Shown here: positions 33,530 through 39,527 of the stretch, piece after piece
How the letters are laid out: the number at the start of each line of letters is the position of its first letter
Position numbering within the stretch: the first letter of the stretch is position 1
Source of the DNA: Sanguibacter keddieii DSM 10542
GTDB lineage: Bacteria; Actinomycetota; Actinomycetes; Actinomycetales; Cellulomonadaceae
DNA: 64,000 nucleotides
NCBI RefSeq assembly: GCF_000024925.1
Contig: NC_013521.1
Span: forward strand, 558,001-622,000
Direction of reading: 5' to 3'
Notes under the pieces: model-generated
Database searches by the model: none
What the model was told of the DNA's origin: nothing
What the model saw: only the letters and a program-made list of their open reading frames with translations
Made by a program: the position numbers and the translations under genes

Positions 33530-33884
33530 GCGTGACCTTAGCGCGGACCGGGGCTCGTGCCGTTGACAGTCCTCACCCGCTCTGCCAAGGTCGGTGGCAC
33601 CGACGGGAAGCGCATTCCCGCCGGACGACACCACCTCGGCAGGTTCACCGTTGAGCCCGCAGGGCGTGTTGAAACGATTCACAGGTTTGAGCAGGCGTCG
33701 CCCTCGACGTCGTCCCACCCGTACGACCTCGCACCACCCGCACCACTCCCGTCGCACGGCAGCACGCCGTGCGTGCCGCGTCGAGGACGACCGGCCCAGG
33801 GAGGTGGCGTGGTCTTCCTCGCCCGTGCACGGACGCACGGCGAGGGAGCCGACCGTCCGAGATCCCACGAGCAGGAGACCTTTC
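33530..33884 (+). promoter_or_regulatory. Upstream region of the rhamnogalacturonan lyase gene
   Basis: 355 bases with no supported gene. It carries a repressor-type palindrome at 33669-33682, and AGGAGA lies just before the ATG at 33885. About 200 bases of leader would follow a promoter near the operator. Confidence 0.6.
33669..33682. promoter_or_regulatory. Shared operator (TTGAAACGATTCAC), copy a
   Basis: Palindrome TGAAACGATTCA with central CG. The 14-base site fits TTGNAWCGATTCAM together with copies at 45228, 45374 and 56001. Position upstream of the lyase gene suggests regulation by one LacI-type repressor not encoded next to it. Confidence 0.65.
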
Positions 33885-36800
33885 ATGCAGAGCAACCACC
33901 CCGGGGGCACACCCCCGAGGGCCGGCGGGCCGATGACGCCCCGCCGGCACCGGAGCAGGACCCTGAGAGCGGCGGTCGCGGCAGCCGCGGCCTTCTCGAC
34001 AGCGCTGACCGCCGTCGTCGTCGCGACCCCGTCCGTCGCCGCTGACGCGTCCGACGAGGTCGTCGCCACGCAGGACGCGACGCCCGCCGCGCCCGAGACA
34101 GACGCTGCCGCGACCCCCGAGGCCGAGGACCAGCCCGAGGGCGAGACAGCGCCGGCTGAACCTGAGGAGGGAGCGACCGAGCCCGAGGCCGACCTACCCG
34201 CGCCTCAGCCCGAGGTACCGGAGCCCGAGGCCCCCGGAACCGACGCTGTCGCCCCCGAGACCACCGAGGACCCCGACACCACAGAGGTGACCGCCGCAGA
34301 CGACCCCGTCGACCCCGCGCTCGCGGCCCCGGCCTGGGTCCGCACGGCGCGCGTCACCGACACGGCGGCGACGCTCCGCTGGGACCAGGTCGCCGGTGCC
34401 ACGGGCTACGTCCTGACCCGTGCCGACACCCCTGACGGCGAGCAGGTCGAGGTCGGCCGGACCGGCGAGCGCGCCTTCACCCTCGTCGACGAGGCCGCCG
34501 ACACGTCGGTGGTGGGCTTCTACCGGGTCGCCGCGACCACGGCCGCCGGCCGCTCGGGCTTCTCCGCCGCGACGGCCACGCCCGTCGCCACCCCCGCGGA
34601 GCTCCCCGAGGGCGGCGAGCTGCGGCTCGACCTCGGGCCGGGGGCCGTCGAGGACGGCTGGACCGCCCTCGACGCCACCTCGGCGTACACGACCGAGTCA
34701 CGCATCGGCTTCGTCGACCCCGCGCAGGTGACGTCCACGGACCGCGGGGGCGACGACGCCCTGCGGTCCGACTTCGTCACCGTGGGCGACACCGAGCTGG
34801 TCGTCGACCTCCCGGCCGGGGACTACACGGTCTCCCTCGTCGCCGGGGACAGCGCCGGACCCACGGACATCTCGATCACCGCCGAGACCATCGCCAAGGT
34901 CCAGCCGACCACCCGCCCAGCGGGCGAGACGCTCGAGATGTCCTTCGACATCGCGCTCGTCGACGGCCAGCTCAACCTCGAGCTGGGCGGCACCGCCGCC
35001 AACCTCGCGGCGCTGACGATCACCCGCCTGCCGGACCGAGCACCCGGGTCGCCGACGGTGTTCCTCACCGGCGACTCGACCGTCCAGAGCTACACCTCGG
35101 GGTACGCCCCGCAGGCCGGCTGGGGTCAGATGCTCGACCGGTTCCTCGACGACGAGGTCACGGTCGACAACCACGCGATCGGCGGCCGCAGCACCAAGAA
35201 CTTCATCAGCCAGGGACGCCTCGACGAGGTCCTCCGGCAGATCACCCCGGGCGACCACCTCGTGGTCCAGTTCGGCCACAACGACAACTCCTACGGCGTC
35301 GACGACCGCTACGCGGGACCGGCCGACTACGCGGAGTACCTGCGGACCTTCGTCGAGGGCGCCCAGCAGCGCGGCGCGACGCCCGTCGTCGTGACCCCGG
35401 TCTCGCGCCGCGCGGTCGACGGCGACGGCCGCTTCACCGTGTCGTTCCCCGAGTACGTCCAGGCGGCCACGGACCTCGCGGCCGACGAGGGCGTGGCCCT
35501 CGTCGACCTGTCCCGGCTGAGCCGGGAGTACCTCGACTCGATCGGCGCGGAGGCGGCGAAGTCGGTGTTCCTGCACGTGCCGGCCGGCGTCTACCCCGGC
35601 CGTCCGGCGGGGACGACCGACGACACCCACTTCCAGGAGTACGGCGCGATCCAGCTGGCCCGGCTCGTCGCCGGCGCCGTGGCGGACCTCGACGTCCCGC
35701 TCGCGGCGCACGTCCTCGAGGTCGAGCCGCCCGCCGCGGTCCCGGCCGCCCCGACCGGCCTGGTCGCGGGCGACGTCTCGAACGCCGGCGCGCTGCTGCG
35801 CTGGGCCCCCGTCGAGGGGGCCGACATCTACACCGTGCACCGCAAGGCTGCCGACGCGACCGACGACGCCTACGCGCTCGTCGGCTCGTCGACCCTCCCG
35901 CAGTCTGCGGTGACGGGCCTGACCGAGGGCACCGCGTACGACTTCCGGGTGGTCGCGGTCAACGGTCGCGGCGACTCGGAGCCGTCGGCACCCGTGCGCG
36001 TCACCACCTCGCACGCGCTGTACAGGTTCGACGTGCAGCTCGCCGGCAACCCGCTCATGCCCGGCTACACCGAGGTGAACGAGAAGTCGCTCTACACGCC
36101 CGAGACGGGCTTCGGCTTCCTCGACGTGACCGGTCTCGGCGGTCGTGACCGCGGGGTCGGCTTCACGCCGCCGCCGAACGACCTCCAGCGGGACTTCCTG
36201 CTGCCCGGTCCGCAGCACGTCTTCGCGCTCGACGTGCCGAACGGCACCTACGCCGTGAAGACCTACAACGGTGACTGGATCGGTACCAGCCGCTCCAACG
36301 TCGTCATCGAGGGCAAGGACTACGGTGCGTCGAACGCGGGCGCCGGCGGGGTCTCCGAGAAGACCTCGTCGCCGGTGCTCGTCACCGACGGCCAGCTGAA
36401 CATCCAGCTCACCGGGACGTCGTCGCGGCTCAACGGCATCGAGGTCACCCCGCTGATGCTCGCGCCGCAGCAGCTGGTCCTCGACGACCTCGTGGTCGAC
36501 GGCACCACGGTGACCACCAGCTTCTCGTGGGAGGGCGTCGCTGCCGCGGCGACCTACCGGCTGTACCGCCAGGGCGCCAACGAGCAGGTCCCGGTCCTCG
36601 TCTCCGACGCGGCAGGCACCACCGGGACCGACTCGGGTGCCGCCGTCGGCCAGGTGTACACGTACACCGTGACCGCCGTCGACGCGGCAGGCCTCGAGTC
36701 CGTGGCGTCCAACGCGCTCGAGGTCGTCACGGTCGACCCCGACGTCACGGCACCCGCCGTGCCGACAGGCCTGGCGCTCGGTGCCGTCGGCAAGAACGAC

Positions 36801-39527
36801 GTGACCCTCACCTGGGAAGCGCAGGACGACGCGATCGCCTGGTCGGTCTACCGCTCGGCGACCGCCGACGGCGACGCCGTGCTCCTCGGCACGTCGACCA
36901 CGCCCACCTTCACCGACACCACGGTCCTCACGACCGTGCCGTACCACTACGAGGTGAGCGCGGTGAACGCCGGCGGCGAGTCCGGTCGCTCCGCACGCGT
37001 CGCCTCGACCGCCGACACCGTCCTGGTCCGCCAGGCCGAGCACCTCGACCGGTCGCCCGTCGCGGTCGCCGTCGACGACGGCGTCTACCTCGGGTGGCGC
37101 ATGCTGGGCCTCGACCCCGAGGAGATCGGCTTCACCGTCCAGCGCGACGGCACGACGATCACCCCGGCGCCGATCACCACGAGCACCAACTACGTCGACC
37201 CCGACGGGACCGTCGACTCGGTGTACACCGTCACCCCCGTCTACGCGGGCCTGCGCTCGACGCCCACGGCCGAGTTCGGCGTGTGGGCCGACGGCTCGCT
37301 CGACATCCCGCTCGACAAGCCCGCCGACGGCTACACCAAGGACGGCCAGCCCTTCACGTACTCGGCCGGCGACACCACCGTCGGGGACCTCGACGGCGAC
37401 GGCGAGTACGAGCTCGTCGTCATGTGGTCGCCGAGCAACAGCAAGGACAACTCGCAGGGTGGCTACACCGGCGAGGTGCTGATCGACGCGTACCGCCTCG
37501 ACGGGACGCGCCTGTGGCGCATCTCGATGGGGCCGAACATCCGCGCCGGGGCGCACTACACGCAGATGATGCTGTTCGACCTCGACTCCGACGGTCGCGC
37601 CGAGCTCATGCTCAAGACGGCCGACGGCACGGTCGACGGCGTGGGCACGGTCATCGGCGACGCCGGGGCCGACTACCGGAACTCGGGCGGGTACGTCCTC
37701 GACGGACCCGAGTTCCTCACCGTGTTCGACGGGGAGACCGGCGCCGCCGTGGACACCGTCGACTACGACCCGCCGCGCGGTGACGTGGGTGCTTGGGGCG
37801 ACGGCTACGGCAACCGTGTCGACCGGTTCCTCGCGGGCATCGCCTACCTCGACGGCGAGCACCCGAGCGCGGTCTTCAGCCGCGGCTACTACACCCGCAC
37901 CGTGATCGCCGCCTACGACTTCGACGGCACGTCGATCTCGCAGCGGTGGGTGTTCGACTCGGACGTCGCAGGGCGCCAGTACGAGGGCCAGGGCAACCAC
38001 AACCTGTCCGTGGCCGACGTCGACGGCGACCAGAAGGACGAGATCGTCTTCGGGTCCATGACCATCGACGACGACGGCACCGTCCTCTACTCGACCGGTC
38101 TGGGCCACGGCGACGCCATGCACGTGTCGGACCTCGACCCCTCGCGGCCCGGCCTCGAGGTGTTCGCCGTGCACGAGTCTGCTCCCTCGCAGCAGGGCAT
38201 CGGTGCGACCATGCGCGACGCCGCCACCGGCGAGGTGCTGTGGTCGATGCCGGCCACCCGCGACGTCGGACGTGGTGCCTCGGGCGACATCGACCCGCGG
38301 TACGACGGTGCCGAGTCGTGGGCCGTCACGGCCGACGGCGCGTGGGACAGCCGGGACGGCGAGATGCGCGCCGCCGACGGCACGGTCATCACCGACAGCA
38401 TCCCTGCGGCGAACTTCCTCACGTGGTGGGACGGCGACCTCCTCCGGGAGATCACCGACCACGACTTCACGGTCGAGACCCGCACCGGTGTCCCGACGGT
38501 GTCGAAGTGGGACTGGGAGGCCGGTCAGACCGTCCGCCTCGAGACCTTCGACGGGACCCGGTCGAACAACGACACCAAGGGGAACCCCGCCCTCCAGGCC
38601 GACCTGTTCGGCGACTGGCGCGAGGAGCTCGTGTACCGCACGGACGACTCGACGGCGCTGCGCGTCTTCACCACGACGGACGTCACGGAGCACCGCCTGC
38701 GCACGCTCATGCACGACCCGGTCTACCGGCTCGGCGTGGCGTGGCAGAACGTCTCGTACAACCAGCCGCCGCACCCCTCGTTCTTCCTCGGGGAGGGCAT
38801 GGAGACGCCAGCTGCACCGTCGATCACGTACACCGGGGTCGAGGGGAACGGCGTCGTGACGGAGCCGACCGGTCCGCCGGTCGCCGCCGACGAGTCCGCG
38901 CTGCTGCCCGGGCTCGAGGACCTGGTGACCGTCCCGGAGGGCACCTACCGCCCGGGCGACACCGTCCCGGTGACGCTCGTCGACGAGAGCCGCGTCGGCG
39001 ACTGGATGTCGGTGTGGCTGCGCTCCGAGCCCGTGCTGCTGGGTGACTGGCAGCGCGTCTCGGCCGAGAGCGGCCTCGACGCGGTCATCCCGCTCGACGC
39101 CGAGCCGGGCACGCACCGCCTCGTGGTGCAGGACGGCGCTGACGAGGTGGTCGGCTGGACCGCGCTCGTCGTGGTCGCCGACGAGGAGCCGGGCGTCGAC
39201 CCGGGCCCGGGTGTGGACCCCGGTCCCGGCGTGGACCCCGGTCCCGGGGGAGACCCCGACCCGGGCACGGACCCTGCTCCCGGGACCGCCCCGGGCGCTG
39301 GTCCCGGTGCCGGCGGCGGCGCTGGGGGTGGGGGTGCCGTCGTCGACGCCGACGGCCCTGACGCCGGCTCCTCCGCCACCGGTGGCTCCGGGCCGTCGGC
39401 GCTGAGCGCGACCGGCGCCCAGGTCGGCGCCGTGGTCGCGGCGGGCGTGCTCCTGCTGCTCGCCGGCGCGGTGCTGCTCGTGGTGCGACGCCGCCACGGC
39501 CAGGCAGGCCACGGCGACGGGGCCTGA
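33885..39527 (+). CDS. Multidomain surface rhamnogalacturonan acetylesterase / PL11 rhamnogalacturonan lyase
   Basis: A 1,880-residue exported enzyme. Order: signal peptide (to about 53), acidic Pro/Glu/Thr region, Fn3-like domain, galactose-binding-like domain, CE12-type SGNH esterase (Ser motif GDST near 396, GGRSTKNF, FGHND, and DDTHF near 580), Fn3, a second galactose-binding-like domain, two Fn3-like domains, then a PL11 rhamnogalacturonan lyase (about 1045-1650, opening RQAEHLDRSPVAV, with calcium-type DLDGDGEYELVV repeats). A DPGPGV-repeat linker, sortase-like motif LSATG near 1840, a membrane helix and RRRHGQ follow. It should deacetylate and cut RG-I at the cell surface. Start chosen at the ATG with AGGAGA. 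Confidence 0.93.
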   Translation: MQSNHPGGTPPRAGGPMTPRRHRSRTLRAAVAAAAAFSTALTAVVVATPSVAADASDEVVATQDATPAAPETDAAATPEAEDQPEGETAPAEPEEGATEPEADLPAPQPEVPEPEAPGTDAVAPETTEDPDTTEVTAADDPVDPALAAPAWVRTARVTDTAATLRWDQVAGATGYVLTRADTPDGEQVEVGRTGERAFTLVDEAADTSVVGFYRVAATTAAGRSGFSAATATPVATPAELPEGGELRLDLGPGAVEDGWTALDATSAYTTESRIGFVDPAQVTSTDRGGDDALRSDFVTVGDTELVVDLPAGDYTVSLVAGDSAGPTDISITAETIAKVQPTTRPAGETLEMSFDIALVDGQLNLELGGTAANLAALTITRLPDRAPGSPTVFLTGDSTVQSYTSGYAPQAGWGQMLDRFLDDEVTVDNHAIGGRSTKNFISQGRLDEVLRQITPGDHLVVQFGHNDNSYGVDDRYAGPADYAEYLRTFVEGAQQRGATPVVVTPVSRRAVDGDGRFTVSFPEYVQAATDLAADEGVALVDLSRLSREYLDSIGAEAAKSVFLHVPAGVYPGRPAGTTDDTHFQEYGAIQLARLVAGAVADLDVPLAAHVLEVEPPAAVPAAPTGLVAGDVSNAGALLRWAPVEGADIYTVHRKAADATDDAYALVGSSTLPQSAVTGLTEGTAYDFRVVAVNGRGDSEPSAPVRVTTSHALYRFDVQLAGNPLMPGYTEVNEKSLYTPETGFGFLDVTGLGGRDRGVGFTPPPNDLQRDFLLPGPQHVFALDVPNGTYAVKTYNGDWIGTSRSNVVIEGKDYGASNAGAGGVSEKTSSPVLVTDGQLNIQLTGTSSRLNGIEVTPLMLAPQQLVLDDLVVDGTTVTTSFSWEGVAAAATYRLYRQGANEQVPVLVSDAAGTTGTDSGAAVGQVYTYTVTAVDAAGLESVASNALEVVTVDPDVTAPAVPTGLALGAVGKNDVTLTWEAQDDAIAWSVYRSATADGDAVLLGTSTTPTFTDTTVLTTVPYHYEVSAVNAGGESGRSARVASTADTVLVRQAEHLDRSPVAVAVDDGVYLGWRMLGLDPEEIGFTVQRDGTTITPAPITTSTNYVDPDGTVDSVYTVTPVYAGLRSTPTAEFGVWADGSLDIPLDKPADGYTKDGQPFTYSAGDTTVGDLDGDGEYELVVMWSPSNSKDNSQGGYTGEVLIDAYRLDGTRLWRISMGPNIRAGAHYTQMMLFDLDSDGRAELMLKTADGTVDGVGTVIGDAGADYRNSGGYVLDGPEFLTVFDGETGAAVDTVDYDPPRGDVGAWGDGYGNRVDRFLAGIAYLDGEHPSAVFSRGYYTRTVIAAYDFDGTSISQRWVFDSDVAGRQYEGQGNHNLSVADVDGDQKDEIVFGSMTIDDDGTVLYSTGLGHGDAMHVSDLDPSRPGLEVFAVHESAPSQQGIGATMRDAATGEVLWSMPATRDVGRGASGDIDPRYDGAESWAVTADGAWDSRDGEMRAADGTVITDSIPAANFLTWWDGDLLREITDHDFTVETRTGVPTVSKWDWEAGQTVRLETFDGTRSNNDTKGNPALQADLFGDWREELVYRTDDSTALRVFTTTDVTEHRLRTLMHDPVYRLGVAWQNVSYNQPPHPSFFLGEGMETPAAPSITYTGVEGNGVVTEPTGPPVAADESALLPGLEDLVTVPEGTYRPGDTVPVTLVDESRVGDWMSVWLRSEPVLLGDWQRVSAESGLDAVIPLDAEPGTHRLVVQDGADEVVGWTALVVVADEEPGVDPGPGVDPGPGVDPGPGGDPDPGTDPAPGTAPGAGPGAGGGAGGGGAVVDADGPDAGSSATGGSGPSALSATGAQVGAVVAAGVLLLLAGAVLLVVRRRHGQAGHGDGA

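Follow-up and report, generated by a model that had tools for sequence, protein, structure and literature searches.

The window analysed here, a 64,000-nucleotide stretch of the Sanguibacter keddieii genome, carries at positions 33885–39527 of the forward strand a gene that frame translation gives as a single open reading frame of 1,880 residues, running without an internal stop from an ATG at 33885 to a stop codon at 39525–39527. Its third-position GC of 0.94 matches that of the other genes, a codon bias typical of a genuine gene. The first-pass annotation of this DNA had placed a CE12-type esterase and a PL11 lyase on this one chain, and the Pfam matches, the catalytic residues and the uninterrupted frame bear this out. 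An assembly join of two genes, which it had named as a possible flaw, is ruled out by the occurrence of the identical domain order on one chain in 80 contigs (the best 80 of 248 loci from the genome scan described below). The CE12-PL11 fusion chain is real, was correctly read from the start, and is mostly explained. Its features are as follows.

33870–33879, +, Shine-Dalgarno-like AGGAGA region, about 10 bases 5′ of the ATG
33885–39527, +, CE12-PL11 fusion gene with sorting signal, 1,880 residues (open reading frame and Pfam)
33885–34040, +, probable Sec signal peptide, residues 1–52: RRHRSR, Ala-rich core, ..PSVA (inspection)
34041–34325, +, acidic Pro/Glu/Ala-rich linker, residues 53–147 (inspection)
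34326–34604, +, Fn3-like domain, residues 148–240 (inspection; homologs)
34623–34982, +, GBD1, YxiM/agarase-type galactose-binding-like domain, residues 247–366 (PF21254; PDB 2o14; AlphaFold model)
35055–35669, +, CE12 rhamnogalacturonan acetylesterase domain, residues 391–595 (Pfam, alignment, Foldseek match to 1deo)
35748–36002, +, Fn3, residues 622–706 (PF00041)
36021–36404, +, GBD2, second YxiM-type galactose-binding-like domain, about residues 712–838 (PF21254; 2o14 by profile)
36420–36722, +, Fn3-like domain, residues 846–946 (all-beta in AlphaFold models; kept in homologs)
36744–36998, +, Fn3, residues 954–1038 (PDB 3mpc, E=1.7e-8; kept in homologs)
37029–37286, +, PL11 N-terminal beta-sheet domain, residues 1049–1134 (PF18370)
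37299–38819, +, PL11 catalytic eight-bladed propeller, residues 1139–1645 (PF21348, E=2e-246; YesX, YesW and 4cag)
38322–38360, +, lengthened YesX-like cleft loop, about residues 1480–1492 (landmark spacing against YesX and YesW)
38871–39206, +, Ig-like stalk domain preceding the anchor (genome copies before LxxTG tails)
39207–39401, +, DPGPG/Gly-rich linker, presumably wall-spanning (inspection)
39402–39524, +, predicted cell-wall sorting signal: LSATG (39402–39416), hydrophobic helix, RRR (NF058582; tail comparison)

From the N-terminus to the C-terminus, the chain comprises a signal peptide, acidic linker, Fn3-like domain, GBD1, CE12, Fn3, GBD2, two Fn3 domains, PL11, the Ig-like stalk, a linker, and LSATG-helix-RRR. 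A Pfam scan of the protein returned RGL11_C (E=2e-246), RGI_lyase (8e-28), AGA-YXIM_GBD and fn3 over two stretches each, and GDSL, while AlphaFold models of the first and second parts have mean pLDDT values of 89 and 84, respectively. The Fn3 repeats proposed in the first-pass annotation were recovered with PF00041, PDB 3mpc and the homologs. The extra N-terminal GBD of most homologs is absent in S. keddieii, which has the acidic linker and Fn3-like domain there. A third GBD near the N-terminus was seen in about 50 homologs (e.g. locus L024).

The esterase and its galactose-binding-like domains

The CE12 domain contains the SGNH/GDSL blocks GDST, GGRS, GHND and DDTH, with the motifs GDST at residue 396, AIGGRS at 431, FGHND at 463 and DDTHF at 579. 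The catalytic residues Ser398, Gly434, Asn466, Asp579 and His582 are invariant in 34 aligned sequences. A Foldseek search with the first AlphaFold model gave YxiM (2o14) as the best match, covering residues 246–572, and the RG acetylesterase 1deo over the catalytic part (TMt 0.75). We infer that the CE12 part deacetylates RG-I.

PF21254 (AGA-YXIM_GBD) matches GBD2 with 33.8 bits (cut-off 27) and was found in 32 of the 32 GBD2 sequences scanned, from S. keddieii and 31 homologs. GBD1 and the homologous GBD2 domains thus share one Pfam family, so the duplicated galactose-binding-like domain, as first annotated, is real. Searched against the PDB, a profile of the 32 GBD2 sequences found YxiM 2o14 (E=6e-15) as the sole credible match. 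CBM35 was considered as an identity for GBD2 and rejected by sequence, the same profile having matched no CBM35 structure up to E=1.

The lyase

The PL11 part is an eight-bladed propeller with its catalytic and Ca-binding residues in place. R1463, K1565, Y1625, H1372 and H1408 align with YesW R452, K535, Y595, H363 and H399, with the roles of the Arg/Lys/Tyr set and the Ca-binding His residues taken from PL11 relatives (PMC8787155), and all of these are invariant in 86 fused and 12 unfused PL11 sequences. The closest PDB entry by both sequence and fold is YesX; Foldseek of the second AlphaFold model ranked YesX 2zuy first, followed by YesW, with TMt of 0.94–0.95.

YesX is an exo-lyase (PDB title of 2zuy; PMC9314435; PMC7596534). 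The spacing between landmarks flanking the cleft loop is 36 residues in YesX, 27 in both YesW and 4cag, and 36 in S. keddieii, and it lies between 34 and 37 residues in 86 of 86 fused lyases. Members of the Paenibacillus type have the first loop, with the second insertion absent. The extra cleft loop of YesX was reportedly identified by Ochiai and colleagues in 2009 as responsible for exo action. Because the YesX-type loop is present, attack from chain ends is probable, and the fused lyase is probably exolytic, a call that depends on one loop.

A second PL11 gene lies elsewhere in the S. keddieii genome, at 2850155–2852380 (1,085-residue frame), with its PL11 matches in two pieces; the genome search gave no CE12 match for this gene.

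The sorting signal, stalk and sortase

The C-terminus carries an LxxTG motif, LSATG at residues 1840–1844, followed by a hydrophobic helix and the positive tail RRR, exactly as first annotated. In a whole-genome scan, the tail scored 33.5 bits (E=2.7e-7, rank 2) against the NCBIfam LAVTG sorting-signal model NF058582, above its cut-off of 27; on the whole protein the same model gave 25.9 bits, just below that cut-off. The P3 residue is serine, which departs from a strict LAXTG signal with alanine at P3.

The first-pass annotation had likened LSATG to class E signals and proposed a search for such a sortase; a genome lacking sortases altogether would have counted against its reading. We searched the 4,253,413 bp genome (one contig) and found one sortase, the sole PF04203 match. 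It belongs to class E (NF033747, 241.8 bits, cut-off 160), is related to SrtE1, and has 5utt as its closest PDB entry. Its S3 tyrosine, Tyr144, aligns with Tyr229 of SrtE1, which has been proposed to make the enzyme choose signals of the alanine type; class E sortases prefer alanine over proline at P3 (PMC5148588).

The genome encodes 18 proteins with a C-terminal L[A/S/P]xTG-helix-Arg tail (10 with alanine, 5 with serine and 3 with proline at P3), gathered by a family search that may have missed some. We know of no demonstration of cleavage of a class E signal with serine at P3. The Ig-like stalk domain occurs in six copies in the genome, all six directly before LxxTG tails, and no Pfam family matched the copy at 38871–39206. 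Taken together, the prediction of a sortase signal in the LSATG tail holds at the level of sequence. Among the remaining proteins with such tails are a GH53 galactanase (LSETG), a pullulanase (LSLTG), a GH30-like protein (LASTG) and a subtilase (LSQTG). GH53 enzymes cleave galactan in the side chains of RG-I, and the cell surface may thus be a place where both these branches and the backbone are attacked.

Spread and ancestry of the fusion

We scanned 84,980 genomes and kept the best 80 of 248 loci, a sample biased towards full-length relatives since the query was full-length. In all 80, CE12 and PL11 lie on one chain, and the order GBD-CE12-Fn3-GBD-Fn3-Fn3-PL11 was found wherever the contig was complete, answering the proposed search for proteins of the same domain order. 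The hosts of these best 80 loci are Actinomycetota (Sanguibacter, Cellulomonas, Isoptericola, Arthrobacter, Microbacterium, Kribbella, Tessaracoccus and others) and Bacillota (Paenibacillus, Metabacillus, Aquibacillus, Lederbergia and others), and the fusion is thus not unique to S. keddieii. Of 296 genomes drawn evenly from the phylum, two contained the fusion (S. keddieii counted) and six had only unfused PL11; of 59 relatives, searched with residues 239–1648, eight carried the fusion.

The first reading had treated the fusion as special to this protein, in contrast to separate Bacillus enzymes. The enzymes of B. subtilis are indeed separate, but many other Bacillota have them fused, and the widespread fusion was reported in 2023. 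In their account of this architecture, Hobbs et al. 2023 (Microb Genom, PMC10483417) list CE12 with PL11 in 50 proteins, give the arrangement CE12:CBM35:PL11, propose synergy, and state that to their knowledge 0 of the 50 had been characterised.

Pairwise distances for CE12 and PL11 across 86 fused proteins are strongly correlated, with a Mantel r of 0.86 against at most 0.12 in 500 permutations, and the GBDs group by their place in the chain and not by species. Both observations suggest one old fusion kept together, and a single fusion event followed by descent and transfer is the simplest reading of these sequences. In the PL11 tree, the copy from Sporosarcina beigongshangi (Bacillota) falls within the actinobacterial clade, which suggests a recent transfer. 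A GBD-Fn3-PL11 paralog without CE12 adjoins the fused gene in two Cellulomonas (L033:14012–17722 and L074:14048–17683) and one Isoptericola (L039:5299–8535).

A conserved core with a variable C-terminal module

The C-terminal module varies from one fused protein to another. Only S. keddieii and S. inulinus have a tail of the class E type; LPxTA-type tails are found in two Aquibacillus proteins, SLH domains in five Paenibacillus proteins, CBM5/12 at the C-terminus in four proteins, and Ig-like domains at the C-terminus in many, while 13 proteins end no more than 60 residues past the lyase. The Aquibacillus LPxTA tails (loci L086 and L091) are apparently an independent gain of wall anchoring. 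Most fused proteins lack a recognised anchor, and most homologs, those of other Sanguibacter among them, lack the tail.

A missing sortase was rejected as the reason for the missing tail, since 12 of the 12 tested genomes of tail-less relatives carry a class E sortase. The absence of the tail from most homologs despite this sortase suggests that anchoring is not needed for the basic job of the enzyme, and that the core is conserved while placement is what changes. We propose tentatively, with somewhat less than even confidence, that an old deacetylase-exolyase core has had its C-terminal module repeatedly exchanged to set its place (free, carbohydrate-bound, S-layer-type, or wall-bound via different sortases). 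On the same proposal, the Sanguibacter class E sortase would accept serine at P3, and the enzyme would form a surface set for dismantling RG-I with the GH53 galactanase. The fusion itself is already known, and the anchored tail is a rare new variation on it. What is new is the form predicted to be anchored by a class E sortase with serine at P3, the variable C-terminal module, and the YesX-like loop in 86 of 86 fused lyases. The last two, with the exolytic character that the loop suggests, go beyond the first-pass annotation.

Gene neighbourhood and proposed mechanism

Nearby genes encode UxaA- and UxaB-like enzymes, a LacI regulator, GH95, sugar ABC transporters, an arabinofuranosidase and an acetyl xylan esterase, a set that fits pectin use. 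Conservation of this context is modest, with sugar ABC permeases in the flanks of about 20 of the best 80 of 248 loci.

We consider it likely that the protein is secreted, that the housekeeping class E sortase displays it on the cell wall, and that it acts there on RG-I as a bifunctional enzyme, deacetylating its substrate and then cleaving it, probably exolytically. The sortase would cut LSATG between Thr and Gly and link the protein to peptidoglycan, placing the lyase at the wall-proximal end and the esterase distally, with the Fn3 domains, stalk and linker as spacers. The GBDs would hold acetylated RG-I while CE12 strips acetyl groups from GalA first. PL11 would then split the exposed Rha-GalA linkages by beta-elimination, a Ca-dependent step that probably proceeds from chain ends, and would release small unsaturated products close to the ABC sugar importers of the cell. 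An exolytic lyase would have to stop at every acetylated residue it reached, so it is this type of lyase that would gain most from a deacetylase on its own chain. We infer that deacetylation and cleavage are coordinated at the wall, as first suggested.

Three other readings bear on parts of this mechanism. The lyase could be endolytic like YesW, the fusion merely holding together two pectinases that act independently; endo and exo members of PL11 share their catalytic residues, and most of the characterised members listed in PMC8787155 are endo. The YesX-like spacing throughout the fused lyases, against the shorter spacing in YesW and 4cag, and the standing of YesX as nearest PDB entry in both sequence and fold make this somewhat unlikely. 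Alternatively, the CE12 domain could act on another acetylated polymer such as xylan or homogalacturonan, so that the two domains have no common chain as target. As described by Hobbs et al., CE12 activities span pectin, RG and xylan (PMC10483417), but here the domain shares its chain with an RG lyase, co-evolving strictly with it across two phyla, and is homologous to the fungal RG acetylesterase 1deo, and we regard this reading as quite improbable.

The tail, in turn, could serve as a transmembrane anchor only, or the bifunctional enzyme could be shed, with LSATG escaping the sortase. The P3 residue here is serine, whereas alanine or proline was tested for class E (PMC5148588), the tail is missing in most homologs, and the case for processing is drawn from sequence. 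Against this, LSxTG with the same layout ends 5 of the 18 tails of the genome, the sortase retains the class E S3 tyrosine, the tail exceeds the cut-off of the actinobacterial sorting model NF058582 in the genome scan, and the stalk domain is found solely before such tails, leaving an unprocessed tail improbable.

The wall-displayed, deacetylating lyase that we favour offers a natural test of whether acetylated RG-I is attacked faster when deacetylase and lyase are joined in a single chain; the S. keddieii and S. inulinus proteins, predicted to be anchored, can be compared with the closely related unanchored protein of S. gelidistatuariae. It also suggests L-S-x-T-G as a regular class E sortase signal, in which case more actinobacterial proteins would be predicted to reside in the wall.

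Comparison with known systems

The closest described protein is Metabacillus HUW50_16055 (CE12:CBM35:PL11; PMC10483417), which likewise has CE12, a binding domain and PL11 on one chain, with the CE12 triad and PL11 propeller conserved in both proteins. The published outline of its architecture makes no mention of a cell-wall anchor, whereas one is predicted in S. keddieii, and the middle domain that the outline names CBM35 matches AGA-YXIM_GBD in the S. keddieii family (32/32).

The class E substrates of SrtE1 in S. coelicolor (LAXTG; PMC5148588) similarly combine LxxTG, a hydrophobic helix and arginines with a class E sortase bearing the S3 tyrosine. The substrates described there are chaplins, not polysaccharide lyases, and the S. 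keddieii fusion protein and four others of its genome have serine at P3, unlike LAXTG.

Bacillus subtilis YxiM (2o14) has a GBD followed by a GDSL/CE12-type esterase, as in S. keddieii, but lacks the lyase, the second GBD and the sorting signal. YesT, YesW and YesX of B. subtilis belong to the same enzyme families, and YesX also has the lengthened cleft loop. They are, however, separate single-enzyme proteins, and of the two systems only that of S. keddieii has the GBD and Fn3 chain and the predicted wall anchor.
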